Positions 3,973-21,545 of a stretch of DNA of 34,311 nt are shown in pieces. Each line of letters begins with the position of its first letter. The first letter of the stretch is position 1. The notes under the pieces are model-generated. The model ran no database searches, was not told the DNA's origin, and saw only the letters and a list, made by a program, of their open reading frames with translations. Origin of the DNA: Candidatus Peribacteria bacterium (GTDB lineage: Bacteria; Patescibacteriota; Gracilibacteria; Peribacterales; Peribacteraceae); assembly GCA_016866875.1 (NCBI GenBank), contig VGKY01000008.1:1-34311 (forward strand). Direction: 5' to 3'. The position numbers and the translations under genes were made by a program.

Positions 3973-5262
3973 CTACGAGTGTGATGTTTTATGGACCAGC
4001 TCAAGTGCACGTTCGATGATGAGCTTTAAATCGGCGAGTGCATGGCTGAACCGACGGTAGGCTTCGAACGGCGATTCGTAGGGACTGAAGTACTTATGCA
4101 CGTCACCGTCGTTCCAATATTTCGTGCAGAGATAGTAGAAATGGTCGGATGTCTGAAGTTTACGCCAGATGTCGAGGAGCACGGGATCACCGATTGTTTT
4201 TACTGCGGGTTCAAGTGCGTAGATGCCCGTGAGTGCTGCTTCTTGCAAATAGTTTGATCTCCATGCGGAGAGATCACGTTCTGTGTCTGCCCACGAGATG
4301 AGATGGTGTGCATCGAGCGTGTCCTGCAACTTTTTCACCGACGAACGAACGACCTCCGACGGATTCTTCGTCGCGATCCCGCTTGTCTTGAATGCAGCCG
4401 GCAAATGTCGAAGGAATTCGAAGATGCCAGTCTCCGCCCATTGATGCTCGCCGAAGGTTTCATAGTCCATGAAGAGATTGACAGTCGATCCTTCTGATGC
4501 GCTCACCCATTCCGCGAATACGTTCGACATGAGCGGGTGTCCTACCCACGATTTGTCCGAGAAGCGGAACGCAATGTCGTCGGAGAGACGGTAGTTCTTC
4601 AGAAGGACACTGATGGTTTTCAAAGGACGAGAGTGGATCCGGTAGCGCTTGATTGTCGCTTGCCAATCCAGAGGAAAATCAAACGTCGGTGCTCTGTAGA
4701 CGACATTGGGGCTGCGTCCGGCCAGTAGCCGATCAACGCCCTCGGCGAGAATACCCTTGAATCCGAGAAGGCGAACGATGTTTGCAATTTCGTTGTTGTA
4801 GATAAGCTCGGTGTTTCGAAAGACTGTCGGCACCACGCCGAAGAGAGATCGAATTTTTTCGGAGTGTTTCGAGACTTGTTCGCAGAATTCAGAGAGTGAA
4901 AAGACCGCGGAGAGCGAGTGGTAGTACGTTTCACCGAGAAGCTCAACGCGCCCAGTTTGTACGAGTGCTCGGAATGATTCAAGCACGTCTTCTCCGTATT
5001 CTCGGCACTGGTCGAGGAAGACGCCAGAGAGCGAGTACGCGATGCGGAAATCTTTGTGACGCTCCAGAAGGTCGAGCATGAGCGCATTCGCTGGGAGGTA
5101 GCACTTCTCCGCGACCTTGCGGAAAACAGATCGATTTTTCTCGATGTCGAAGTATGCGGAGTTCATCGTGCCAACATCCGTGATCCTGAGGTCCTTCAGG
5201 CGGTACGGCTGATGGACTTGAAAGTAGAAACAGACGGCCGGAGGCATCTTTGTGTTCTTCAT
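3973..5262 (-). CDS. Glycoside hydrolase family 57 (alpha-amylase-like)
   Basis: 429-residue GH57 enzyme, a retaining hydrolase or transglycosidase on alpha-glucans. Conserved blocks seen in order: HQPYR near the N-terminus, GRVELLGETYYHSL, VFRNTELIYNN with the likely nucleophile Glu, and FMDYETFGEHQW with the likely acid Asp. There is no signal peptide. I chose the ATG at 5262 because it forms an ATGA overlap with the upstream glycosyltransferase stop; an in-frame ATG at 5322 would overlap that gene by 64 bp, and a later ATG at 5247 is also possible. Whether it is an amylase, 4-alpha-glucanotransferase or branching enzyme is not decided by the motifs; the short length favours the amylase-like subgroup. 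Confidence 0.92.
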   Translation of the reverse strand: MKNTKMPPAVCFYFQVHQPYRLKDLRITDVGTMNSAYFDIEKNRSVFRKVAEKCYLPANALMLDLLERHKDFRIAYSLSGVFLDQCREYGEDVLESFRALVQTGRVELLGETYYHSLSAVFSLSEFCEQVSKHSEKIRSLFGVVPTVFRNTELIYNNEIANIVRLLGFKGILAEGVDRLLAGRSPNVVYRAPTFDFPLDWQATIKRYRIHSRPLKTISVLLKNYRLSDDIAFRFSDKSWVGHPLMSNVFAEWVSASEGSTVNLFMDYETFGEHQWAETGIFEFLRHLPAAFKTSGIATKNPSEVVRSSVKKLQDTLDAHHLISWADTERDLSAWRSNYLQEAALTGIYALEPAVKTIGDPVLLDIWRKLQTSDHFYYLCTKYWNDGDVHKYFSPYESPFEAYRRFSHALADLKLIIERALELVHKTSHS

Positions 5263-19331: not shown

Positions 19332-19406
19332 TCCCCTGTAGCTCAATGGTAGAGCACCTCGCTGTTAACGAGGGGGTTACTGGTTCGAGTCCAGTCGGGG
19401 GAGCCA
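19332..19406 (+). tRNA. tRNA-Asn (GTT), CCA encoded
   Basis: A complete cloverleaf is visible: acceptor TCCCCTG pairs with CGGGGGA; D-arm GCTC/GAGC with GG in the loop; anticodon stem CCTCG/CGAGG with loop CTGTTAA (anticodon GTT at 19364-19366); T-arm ACTGG-TTCGAGT-CCAGT. The discriminator is G and CCA is encoded. The GGGGAGCCAA at its 3' end recurs at 20960-20969 and 21536-21545. Confidence 0.97.
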
Positions 19407-19425
19407 ACTAAATTCTAGAACCTGG

Positions 19426-19431
19426 TAAAAT
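19426..19431 (+). promoter_or_regulatory. -10 element of the 19439 gene
   Basis: TAAAAT lies 7 nt before the ATG at 19439, again a leaderless arrangement. No clear -35, as the tRNA end lies there; read-through from the tRNA promoter is possible. Confidence 0.4.
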
Positions 19432-19438
19432 AAAAAAT

Positions 19439-19840
19439 ATGACTCGGCTATTTTTGGCACCACGCAGTAACGAAACAAGTAGGGCACACTTTTTGGCTAC
19501 CCTGGAAAGTGGGTATCCAATCAAGGATGTTGAGCAATTTTTGACAGAAGGAGAACGGAATTTGTTTAGCGAGAAAAAGAGTTTATACATATGGGGTAAC
19601 CAAAAAGCTAAAAAGGGGTCGTGGAACAAAATGAACATAGGAGATTTTGTTGCCTTTTATGCAAAAGGAGAATTGGTTTACGTGGGGAAGTGTATTCTTA
19701 AAAAGCACTCGGCAGAACTTGCGAGGCAATTGTGGGGTAATGATCCTAAGAAAAAAGATCAAAATGCGACGTGGGAATACACATTTTTCCTCAGTTTAAA
19801 GCCTCAACCTCGACTTTTCTATCTCCTTAGACATATTTGA
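19439..19840 (+). pseudogene. N-terminal fragment of a modification-dependent restriction-type protein
   Basis: 133-residue frame resembling the EVE/PUA-like N-terminal domain found on HNH or McrB-type restriction proteins. FLAPRSNETSRAHFLATL, the run W-x-x-M-x-x-GDFVAFYAKGE, then LARQLWGNDPK and TWEYTFFLSL follow the expected order. In those proteins this domain recognises modified bases or sets specificity and is followed by a nuclease or ATPase. Here the frame stops a few residues after the domain, and no nuclease is found downstream, so it is probably truncated. It could also be a free-standing small EVE-like protein. Its stop overlaps the -35 of the next gene. Base composition is clearly AT-richer than in the neighbours. 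Confidence 0.55.
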
Positions 19841-19865
19841 CATATTATGTATATAAGTGTATAAT
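19837..19865 (+). promoter_or_regulatory. Perfect consensus sigma70 promoter
   Basis: TTGACA (19837-19842), exactly 17 nt, TATAAT (19860-19865). Both hexamers match consensus at all positions. The predicted start is near 19872, giving a leader of about 24 nt before the ATG at 19896. It is by far the strongest promoter in the window. Confidence 0.9.
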
Positions 19866-19895
19866 ATATTTGAATTATTTTATTCCAAACTTTTT

Positions 19896-20345
19896 ATGTT
19901 TCGCTCACTCGAAGGAATTAATGTCAAGGATGGAACAGATGATGAAGCAGTAAAGCTAAGAAAATATTTCGAGACTCTGGATCCGCAGCAGCAATTTGCA
20001 GATGTCATAGCCGCAGCCAGAAACGCAAAATTCCAGCAAGGAACCACTCAGCCTCTTGGCGAACGCCTTGTGTACTTTAGAGATGAACCAAACATCGAAT
20101 CCACCCTCAAAATAGATTCGCAAGGGTCTCAAGTGATAATTTCTGCAAAACCTGATGCCGTATCCTTTGTACTGAATGGCGAACCAGTGATCATCAAAGA
20201 TCGAGGTGTGAGATCTGCCATGAATCAAATGCTACAGAATGTCGGTGTCGATTTTGAAGCCTTAGCTGCAAGCCAGGTTCAGGAAAGAGTCCATTCTGAG
20301 GTAGCAGAGAGGCAAGCACAGATACAGTCATTGCTTACAATGTAA
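19896..20345 (+). CDS. Unknown 149-residue protein
   Basis: I do not recognise this protein. It has no membrane segment or signal peptide; the middle (about 55-105) is beta-strand-like and includes KPDAVSFVLNGEPVIIKD, and the last 40 residues are helical and Gln/Glu-rich (VQERVHSEVAERQAQIQSLL). ATG 19896 is chosen over an earlier in-frame ATG (19857) that lies within the promoter. It is AT-richer than the flanking core genes and sits behind a perfect consensus promoter, as expected for a constitutively expressed accessory gene. Confidence 0.65.
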   Translation: MFRSLEGINVKDGTDDEAVKLRKYFETLDPQQQFADVIAAARNAKFQQGTTQPLGERLVYFRDEPNIESTLKIDSQGSQVIISAKPDAVSFVLNGEPVIIKDRGVRSAMNQMLQNVGVDFEALAASQVQERVHSEVAERQAQIQSLLTM

Positions 20346-20420
20346 CGATCCAGCCCTTCCTTCTATCGAAGAAATGCACCGCCCACGCTTCCTAAGCTTG
20401 TCGTAGAGCCAGCTGAATAG

Positions 20421-20457
20421 TATGTGGTATGTCGTATGTGGTATGTAGTATGCGGTA
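20421..20457. repeat. Degenerate heptamer tandem repeat, five units
   Basis: Five units of TATGTGG and variants (TATGTCG, TATGTAG, TATGCGG) in an intergenic position. Confidence 0.85.
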
Positions 20458-20484
20458 AGAAAAAAATGTGAGCTGTGTGTATTC

Positions 20485-20512
20485 TTACTACTTACTTCTT
20501 ACTACTTACTTT
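20485..20512. repeat. Degenerate heptamer tandem repeat, four units
   Basis: Four units of TTACTAC and TTACTTC alternating. The tract runs into the 3' end of the DedA-like fragment. Confidence 0.85.
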
Positions 20513-20789
20513 CCCTTCCCCAGTTCACCGCCTCGCCTTTCCGTCGCTTCCAGTAGAACCAACCAAGGACGAGTAGTACACAAAAAACAATCGTAAGCTT
20601 CAGTACCGTCTCGGCGGTATCGATGCCCGACATGAGTGAACTTGCGGCACCAAGACCTTCGAAGCCGAGGAGAATGAAGAAGAGGTTTCGAATGAAGAAT
20701 CCGACGTACGTGGAAAGGATGAATGTCTTCAGATCGATCTTCAGGATGCCGCAGATCACAAATATGTCAGGAAATCCGAAGGAGCTGAT
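20502..20789 (-). pseudogene. 3' fragment of a SNARE-associated/VTT (DedA-like) membrane protein
   Basis: The open frame has about 95 codons and resembles only the C-terminal part of VTT-domain proteins: SSFGFPDIFVICGILKIDL, two hydrophobic helices and a basic tail (WKRRKGE). A stop codon (TAA, 20790-20792 complement) cuts it off upstream, and no matching N-terminal sequence is found in any frame beyond. A GTG at 20759 could start an 85-residue product, but conserved sequence continues upstream of it. I read it as a remnant. Confidence 0.6.
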
Positions 20790-20792
20790 TTA

Positions 20793-20868
20793 CCCTGTTG
20801 CTCCAGAGTTCTCGGCAGAAGTGAACGCCCTGCATCGCTACTGGAACAAGGGCCGCTTTGATCGGTAA
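20793..20868 (+). pseudogene. Possible 3' end of an unidentified gene
   Basis: The plus-strand frame ending at TAA 20866-20868 reads VAPEFSAEVNALHRYWNKGR and on to the stop, with protein-like codon use, and is back to back with the DedA-like fragment. Upstream the frame runs antisense through that fragment, so only this short end looks genuine. I cannot name the parent gene. Confidence 0.3.
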
Positions 20869-20938
20869 AGACTGTTAAGCCATCCCTAGCTTCAGCATTC
20901 CGAGTGGCAGTTGTTTCAACATGCTATAAATCTCCGCC

Positions 20939-20969
20939 AGTTCTAGAAACAACCAAAATGGGGAGCCAA
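20939..20969. repeat. Direct repeat DR1, left flank of the MOSC gene
   Basis: 31-bp sequence that begins AGTTCTAGAAACA and ends AATGGGGAGCCAA; it matches DR2 (21515-21545) at 29 of 31 positions. The last 10 bases equal the 3' end of tRNA-Asn plus one base. The two copies enclose the MOSC gene and its promoter. Confidence 0.9.
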
Positions 20970-20971
20970 AC

Positions 20972-20999
20972 TTGACTTATATAAAAAATAATCTAAAAT
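20972..20999 (+). promoter_or_regulatory. Promoter of the MOSC gene
   Basis: TTGACT (20972-20977), a 16-nt spacer and TAAAAT (20994-20999), then 7 nt to the ATG at 21007. It starts 3 nt after the end of DR1. Confidence 0.65.
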
Positions 21000-21006
21000 T
21001 TCTTTT

Positions 21007-21498
21007 ATGAGTGAGTCTCTGAAAATTCTGGAAATTCAGACAGCAGCAGATAAAGGTCTGCCCATGCAATCCCTCGAGCATGTAAAAATTGTAGGCAGTG
21101 GAATTGAGGGCGACCGATATGCATCTGGCAAAGGAGCATTTTCGAAATCTCCGCCTCCGAGAAATATCGATAGACACATCACTCTCATTCAGAGCGAAAT
21201 GATCGAAGCCGTGAATGCGGAAAAAGGCATTAGTATCACGTTTGCGGATACCAGACGGAATCTTCTGACCATTGGTATTCAGCTGAATGATTTGGTTGGC
21301 AAGAAATTTCAGATCGGCGAGGTACTTGTCGAAGGTGTGGAACTCTGCGAACCATGTGGAAGACCGGGCACTCTTTCGACCAATGCAGATGTAAAGCAGC
21401 ATTTTAAAGACGCTTTTGTAGGTCGCGGCGGACTACGCGTGAGAGTTCTTGACACAGGTGAAATTCATCAGGGCGATGAAATCAAGCTTGTGGAGTAA
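21007..21498 (+). CDS. MOSC domain protein
   Basis: 163-residue stand-alone MOSC (Moco sulfurase C-terminal) domain, a sulfur-carrier fold used in molybdenum-cofactor-related and other thiol chemistry. GIEGDRYASGKG (about 34-45), RRNLLTIGIQLNDLVGKKF (about 79-97), VELCEPCGRPG with the conserved cysteines (about 117-127), and GRGGLRVRVLDTG (about 140-152) are all present, so it looks functional. It sits alone between two 31-bp direct repeats with its own promoter, like a single-gene cassette. No molybdenum cofactor gene is in the window. Confidence 0.88.
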   Translation: MSESLKILEIQTAADKGLPMQSLEHVKIVGSGIEGDRYASGKGAFSKSPPPRNIDRHITLIQSEMIEAVNAEKGISITFADTRRNLLTIGIQLNDLVGKKFQIGEVLVEGVELCEPCGRPGTLSTNADVKQHFKDAFVGRGGLRVRVLDTGEIHQGDEIKLVE

Positions 21499-21514
21499 GT
21501 GATAGACAGTAGAC

Positions 21515-21545
21515 AGTTCTAGAAACAGCCACAATGGGGAGCCAA
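21515..21545. repeat. Direct repeat DR2, right flank of the MOSC gene
   Basis: 31-bp copy of DR1 with two substitutions. It follows a TAGACAG heptamer doublet (21503-21516) and ends exactly where the stop codon of a minus-strand gene tail begins (21546-21548). Confidence 0.9.

Follow-up and report, generated by a model that had tools for sequence, protein, structure and literature searches.

The closest described counterpart of the locus analysed here is found in the ssrA islands of Dehalococcoides, where the gene for the serine recombinase DsiB abuts an RNA gene in antisense, overlapping ~70 bp of its 3′ end (PMC3146451). These islands form tandem series of a single orientation, with direct repeats of the RNA 3′ end at their borders; an integration module is missing from about half of them, and dsiB has been suggested to be perhaps fully functional on the circular element only (PMC3146451). 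Integrase-free units bounded by attachment (att) sites are likewise known in tandem at single loci from cis-mobilizable elements (CIMEs) and tandem accretion involving the integrative and conjugative or mobilizable elements of Streptococcus (cited in PMC3146451). In the archaeal suicidal integrases (SSV, pT26-2, pTN3), attP lies within the integrase gene, which is cut on integration, and self-disrupting recombinases have been stated to be exclusive to archaea (PMC8371274). Finally, Islander was limited to tyrosine integrases, since serine integrases were not known in 2014 to target tRNA genes (PMC4383910). Here we consider a 34,311-nucleotide stretch (the window) from Candidatus Peribacteria, contig C8 of a 1.12-Mb genome that is 98% complete and is coded G000 below. 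It carries direct repeats behind a tRNA-Asn gene, which are very probably attR-type scars of large serine recombinase (LSR) elements inserted at the 3′ end of that tRNA, with the LSR gene running through attP.

The anchor of the array is tRNA-Asn(GTT), at 19332–19406 on the forward strand, whose last 16 nt (19391–19406, CCAGTCGGGGGAGCCA) recur at the ends of two units on the same strand, unit 1 at 19407–20968 (1562 bp) and unit 2 at 20969–21544 (576 bp). The original prediction had recognized both the units and the recurrence of the tRNA end, and exact copies of GGGGAGCCAA are indeed found at 19398, 20960 and 21536; its unit and repeat ends, however, were each one base too long, because the shared part, CCANNNNGGGGAGCCA, stops at CCA (19406, 20968 and 21544). 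The direct repeats are 94% identical over 32 nt (20938–20969 versus 21514–21545), and the repeat length of 31 bp first proposed has to be replaced by a conserved site of ~55 nt with a shared tRNA end of 16 nt. Such sites are referred to as class A. In site 1, the first repeat (20914–20968, forward strand), an arm at 20914–20952 is followed by the 16-nt tRNA-Asn 3′ copy at 20953–20968; in site 2, the second repeat (21491–21544, forward strand), the arm is followed by the copy at 21529–21544. The motif TTCTAGAA, said to be rare and yet present beside all three places, has three copies in the window where 0.32 would be expected, a count that none of 100 shuffles reached. A rise in AT content between the repeats had been noted as well, and the GC contents of units 1 and 2 (0.43 and 0.44) indeed lie below those of the lowest equal-size windows elsewhere in the contig (0.52 and 0.49).

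The arm makes sense when read in antisense, where it gives the peptide pattern G-[SG]-x-x-W-[LV]-[FL]-[SL]-E-L-x-x-[IV]-[YF]-x-x-L, with a stop some 25–40 codons on. The coding pattern is limited to one antisense frame, in which information by codon position is 0.73/0.98/0.48, the synonymous fraction of single-base codon differences is 0.52 (0.13–0.38 in the other frames) and only 2 stops occur in 752 codons, as against 28–63 in the other frames; all six frames were compared on the same sites, which are homologous, so that the counts are not independent. In the window, the antisense readings on the reverse strand are GSPFWLFLELAEIYSMLKQLPLGMLKLGMA followed by a stop (20875–20967, site 1), with the coding signature, and GSPLWLFLELSTVYHLLHKLDFIALMNFTCVKNSHA followed by a stop (21433–21543, site 2), which past ~18 codons overlaps the 3′ end of a MOSC gene and is unconserved. 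On its antisense strand, a class-A site is very probably the severed C-terminal coding end of an LSR. The copies of TTCTAGAA within the two repeats are antisense codons for Phe-Leu-Glu, and a reading of symmetric TTCTAGAA arms around a core as attP half-sites was rejected: the repeat copies are better read as codons, and no conserved motif lies on the right side of the site. The third copy of TTCTAGAA, near the tRNA (19413–19420, forward strand), falls outside any class-A tail. It shares with a copy in locus L102, to the right of a site 1932 nt downstream of tRNA-Asn, an equal spacing right of a GGGGAGCC core and a frame giving VLE..WLP; both are possibly remnants of another LSR 3′ end.

Among relatives, ~50 tRNA-Asn loci were sampled, with as much as 20 kb of the sequence that follows the tRNA. 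The octamer [GC]GGAGCCA is found there 76 times in the forward and 16 times in the reverse direction (683 kb), and a profile of the arm finds 28 copies behind tRNA-Asn in sense and none in antisense. In all, this profile has 58 non-redundant matches across 1.75 Mb, compared with 2 in the reversed-sequence control. The motif is present on a single strand in related genera, also in arrays, for example with five copies in 10 kb in G070. According to a sequence model, the site occurs in 32 of the 74 genomes of the family; applied to 380 genomes sampled across the phylum, the model yields a single weak case outside the family, and viral contigs contain no class-A site. Class-A arms also follow tRNA-Ile(GAT), tRNA-Ile(TAT) and tRNA-Asp, again on the strand of the tRNA. 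The sequences involved are short, and TTCTAGAA by itself could recur by chance, but an origin of the repeats in chance or in a generic dispersed repeat is refuted by the shuffle, strand and reversed-sequence controls and by the linkage to tRNA genes and to their strand. Nearly all sites either stand behind a tRNA, on its strand, or belong to short contigs that may have lost the tRNA by truncation, so that the repeat is not scattered without cassettes, an outcome that would have spoken against the original prediction.

The last 16 nt of the site resemble the T-stem 3′ strand, acceptor 3′ strand, discriminator and CCA of the target tRNA. The match is clear for tRNA-Asn (12.1 of 16) and tRNA-Ile(TAT) (12.4), and weaker for tRNA-Ile(GAT), at 9.3, which is not above the match of the same sites to tRNA-Ile(TAT). 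A second island in the window's genome, 9.7 kb long, lies on contig C12 behind tRNA-Ile(GAT) and holds two Asn-type sites and one Ile-type site; the class-A sites of that contig that seem ectopic fall inside this island. The tRNA-Asn locus itself is comparable throughout the family, synteny being kept upstream of the tRNA; downstream, the genus has S51 and trypsin genes in common. The cargo of orthologous loci differs, its ends and their strand being the same, which bears out the proposal of tandem site-specific insertions at the tRNA 3′ end. Two observations in relatives concern the sites and tRNAs of such arrays. In L228 (G020:C17), a palindromic CGCCTCACATGTGAGGCG stands both after tRNA-Asp and after an Asp-type class-A site (12133 and 14967). 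The array of L112 (G009:C3) contains two full and one partial tRNA-Asn copies in tandem (501–575, 4094–4168 and 5002–5060), which share ~80% identity with the other tRNA-Asn of the host, as though complete tRNA genes had travelled with the units.

The owner of the severed tail is suggested by LSR genes at the same tRNAs. In 13 genomes an LSR lies antisense against tRNA-Asn, and its last codons are supplied by the antisense of the tRNA; 19 of 30 other LSR loci adjoin other tRNAs in the same arrangement. The LSRs at tRNA genes retain the Resolvase (PF00239), Recombinase (PF07508) and Zn ribbon domains, the exchanged part being the C-terminal tail only. The distal ends of the LSR elements fall into three classes, A, B and C; those of classes B and C likewise encode C-terminal tails in antisense, and G060 has an intact LSR that reads across a class-C site into its native tail. 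For each class the frame of the LSR at the tRNA is that of the arm (GSP for A, WLP for B and C). When the two ends of an element are joined, a single in-frame LSR with a native tail results in all seven loci tested, from three LSR lineages, 24–47 native residues replacing a tRNA-antisense tail of 9–21 residues. Because the join restores one frame in every case, attP is placed inside the recombinase gene.

The class-A lineage is that of the G038 type, in which an intact LSR stands at tRNA-Asn and a class-A arm lies 14.1 kb distal. LSR remnants of this lineage lie against the tRNA in G046, G034, G062 and the tRNA-Ile island of the window's genome (G000:C12), with class-A arms distal to the LSR 3′ remnants in G046, G034 and G000:C12; relatives of the lineage are found at tRNA-Asp. 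LSRs at other tRNAs were rejected as owners of class A, as class-A arms are missing from their distal ends. Phages or viruses were rejected as carriers, viral contigs containing neither a class-A site nor a relative of the G038 LSR; plasmids hold distant relatives of it only. Close LSR relatives occur at different tRNAs: the very similar LSRs of L165 (G051:C39) and L169 (G024:C46), with branch lengths of 0.05–0.06, are at Lys(TTT) and Ile(TAT), suggesting easy switching of target. In L128 (18910–19170, G054:C4) and L129 (12233–12537, G051:C5), a group I intron (Rfam RF00028) splits the tRNA-Asn gene, and these tRNA genes too have an LSR behind them.

The original prediction pointed to a tyrosine recombinase acting in trans. 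Three such enzymes are encoded in the genome, on contigs C2, C5 and C20, yet the evidence favours LSRs whose own 3′ end is the repeat. Ordinary tyrosine-integrase islands, with a crossover in the T-loop and the 16-nt end as the usual displaced tRNA fragment, would indeed leave something similar: the repeated segment, from the T-stem 3′ strand to CCA, is near a known endpoint class (PMC4383910), and longer tRNA copies stand at some boundaries in relatives (for example tRNA positions 27–75 in G034 and 43–75 in G007). For such long tRNA-copy ends this explanation may still hold. As an account of class A it is highly improbable, and it is disfavoured for class B and C ends as well, the small units containing no tyrosine recombinase and the arm being LSR coding sequence. 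Short tyrosine recombinases (~280–309 aa) lie beside tRNA-Ser in three genomes (L132 1740–2627, G000:C20; L259; L266), and no class-A arms are found at these tRNA-Ser loci. A tyrosine recombinase was also rejected as owner of the repeat on these grounds, and because array genomes may have the housekeeping type only.

An LSR origin of the repeats would entail the following sequence of events. In the free element, attP would lie within the 3′ end of the LSR gene, the last 24–47 codons being beyond the crossover. Integration would sever the gene at attP and restore the tRNA; the body of the LSR would stay antisense beside the tRNA, gaining a short new C-terminus from the tRNA antisense, while its native tail would remain at the far end of the element, fused to the displaced 16-nt tRNA 3′ end. 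Repeated insertions at the tRNA would stack units in a single orientation, and the site in the window would be such a stack of small foreign gene units, the enzyme having since been lost from the genome. The site family, its linkage to tRNA and strand, the coding signature, the LSR frame restored by joining and the lack of any serine recombinase in the window's genome are all apparent at the level of sequence; that the LSR itself performs the exchange is suggested by the anatomy of the elements.

Several points weigh against the reading of the repeats as LSR scars. The units of the window contain neither an LSR nor an LSR remnant, in agreement with the initial claim that no recombinase is encoded there, and no serine recombinase is found in the whole genome, so that the link to LSRs runs via homology to other genomes. 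Class-A arrays are moreover frequent in genomes without any LSR. The element of G038 is the only intact one of class A, the other class-A links being remnants, and a search of viral contigs and plasmids for a free element in which an intact class-A LSR keeps its native tail found none. The crossover is placed only approximately, recombination being predicted from the sequences. Lastly, comparison of relatives, which had been proposed as a check, yielded other cassettes with the same ends, but not a clean empty tRNA-Asn site with both flanks of the window.

With no serine recombinase in the genome, the two units of the window are LSR-free orphans. Unit 1, whose cargo is partly decayed, contains on the forward strand a 133-aa open reading frame (ORF; 19439–19840), probably a gene fragment and without a Pfam or PADLOC match, and a 162-aa orphan ORF (19857–20345), for which an ATG start at 19897 is likelier; on the reverse strand is an 85-aa fragment (20502–20759) with a weak likeness, under the Pfam cut-off, to a VTT/DedA-type membrane protein. 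Unit 2 consists of a single gene for a MOSC-domain protein of 163 aa (21007–21498, forward strand), with a promoter-like TTGACT immediately past the preceding site; this gene is found in none of the other 73 genomes of the family. Units with att ends and no integrase also occur in many relatives. Anchored loci contain 41 arms, 35 of which delimit units of <4 kb (median 1.47 kb). Cargo ranges over a helicase, TspO, a methyltransferase, a histidine phosphatase, an aminotransferase and many unknown proteins. One unit with an antisense gene is found at the tRNA-Asn locus in six genomes: L047 4079–4799, after tRNA-Asn, has homologues in G052, G005, G002, G010 and G034, and its antisense gene, nucleotidyltransferase-like by eye, terminates in tRNA-antisense codons as LSRs do.

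The LSR-free units of the window could have moved with the help of an LSR acting in trans, could have travelled alongside LSR elements, or could have lost the LSR through deletion. The last alternative, that small units are leftovers of whole LSR elements whose recombinase and most of whose cargo were deleted, with no movement of cassettes, is compatible with an LSR origin of the repeats and differs on where the small units come from. We regard it as a real possibility, on balance somewhat doubtful. The LSR remnants elsewhere, at the tRNAs of G046, G034, G062 and G000:C12, favour such deletion leftovers, as do the gene fragments in unit 1 and the frequency of class-A arrays in genomes without LSR. 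The compact unit starts, on the other hand, favour small units moved by an LSR in trans: about a dozen units have their left boundary exactly at CCA, followed by a promoter and a start codon, a placement that random deletion would not give, and intact foreign genes are present in some units, the MOSC gene being one example.

Alternatively, class-A sites may be used by a separate recombinase, for example a single housekeeping Xer in trans, with promoter-plus-gene units moving in and out at tRNA genes in the manner of integron cassettes. Apart from the small size of the units, this would fit the longest ORF having the orientation of the tRNA in 28 of 34 units, the start codon lying 20–45 nt past the boundary CCA in 12 of 32 sense cases, with space for a promoter only, and the housekeeping type being the sole tyrosine recombinase of some array genomes. 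It would also fit a 34-nt unit start that is identical between two genera, behind the tRNA in one instance and behind a class-A arm in the other, and a helicase unit common to the arrays of G070 and G050. Such sharing suggests, only indirectly, that units may be mobilised with or by a related element. However, no conserved hairpin is found in the site (covariation fold energy −0.4) and no conserved sequence to the right of it; the site is therefore not attC-like, and an attC-like hairpin was rejected for want of a covarying fold. Furthermore, conservation of the arm follows its antisense codons, for which a site serving recombination alone would have no use, and the tails belong to intact LSRs. 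An integron-like system thus appears unlikely.

Like the ssrA islands of Dehalococcoides, the arrays of Peribacteria consist of tandem units bounded by direct repeats of an RNA 3′ end, and in relatives, though not in the window itself, a recombinase gene overlaps the RNA gene in antisense. Unlike those islands, which target the tmRNA gene ssrA, they are anchored at tRNA-Asn, tRNA-Ile and tRNA-Asp; the displaced repeat is the coding tail of the recombinase itself in three lineages; units are as small as 0.36–0.7 kb; and arrays occur in genomes without an LSR. With CIMEs and accretion arrays the window shares units that have att ends and lack an integrase; many units in Peribacteria, however, comprise one gene and its promoter, and their att arm codes for part of a recombinase. 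To our knowledge, the described CIME cases are larger elements. The suicidal integrases and the LSRs of the relatives have in common an attP inside the gene itself, but the former are tyrosine recombinases split in two so that the catalytic domain is set apart, and the latter are bacterial serine recombinases in which only a short C-terminal tail is swapped for tRNA-antisense codons. The order of tRNA, island and displaced 3′ tRNA fragment in one orientation is that of Islander tRNA islands. Integron arrays are similar in their tandem, mostly single-gene units of the same orientation, each ending in a related site, and differ in that the units of Peribacteria have no head integrase (intI/attI) and no attC-type hairpin and are anchored at a tRNA. 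The open-access literature searched yielded no account of serine recombinases that target tRNA genes in Patescibacteria; later work may exist. The Peribacteria case departs from the statements in PMC4383910 and PMC8371274.

It is tempting to speculate that Peribacteria employ diverse LSRs targeting many tRNA 3′ ends with attP in their own 3′ end, that the exchange of tails acts as a switch between integrating and integrated states, and that one-sided recognition, with a conserved arm and an unconserved right half, captures promoter-plus-gene units as LSR-free cassettes; this wider picture is put forward tentatively and with some doubt. Two things described as unknown (PMC4383910, PMC8371274) come together here, namely serine recombinases residing at many different tRNA genes and integrases of bacteria in which integration severs the enzyme's gene and gives it a new tail. 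The arrangement would explain recombinases with terminal tRNA-antisense peptides such as WLPRLDSNQRP and GSPDWIRTSNP, and attP sites can be predicted directly once a scar is joined to a recombinase. The scar of the severed tail offers a search handle that flags old insertions once the recombinase is gone. For the small, streamlined and largely uncultured Patescibacteria, the system would provide an identified route by which foreign genes are acquired.

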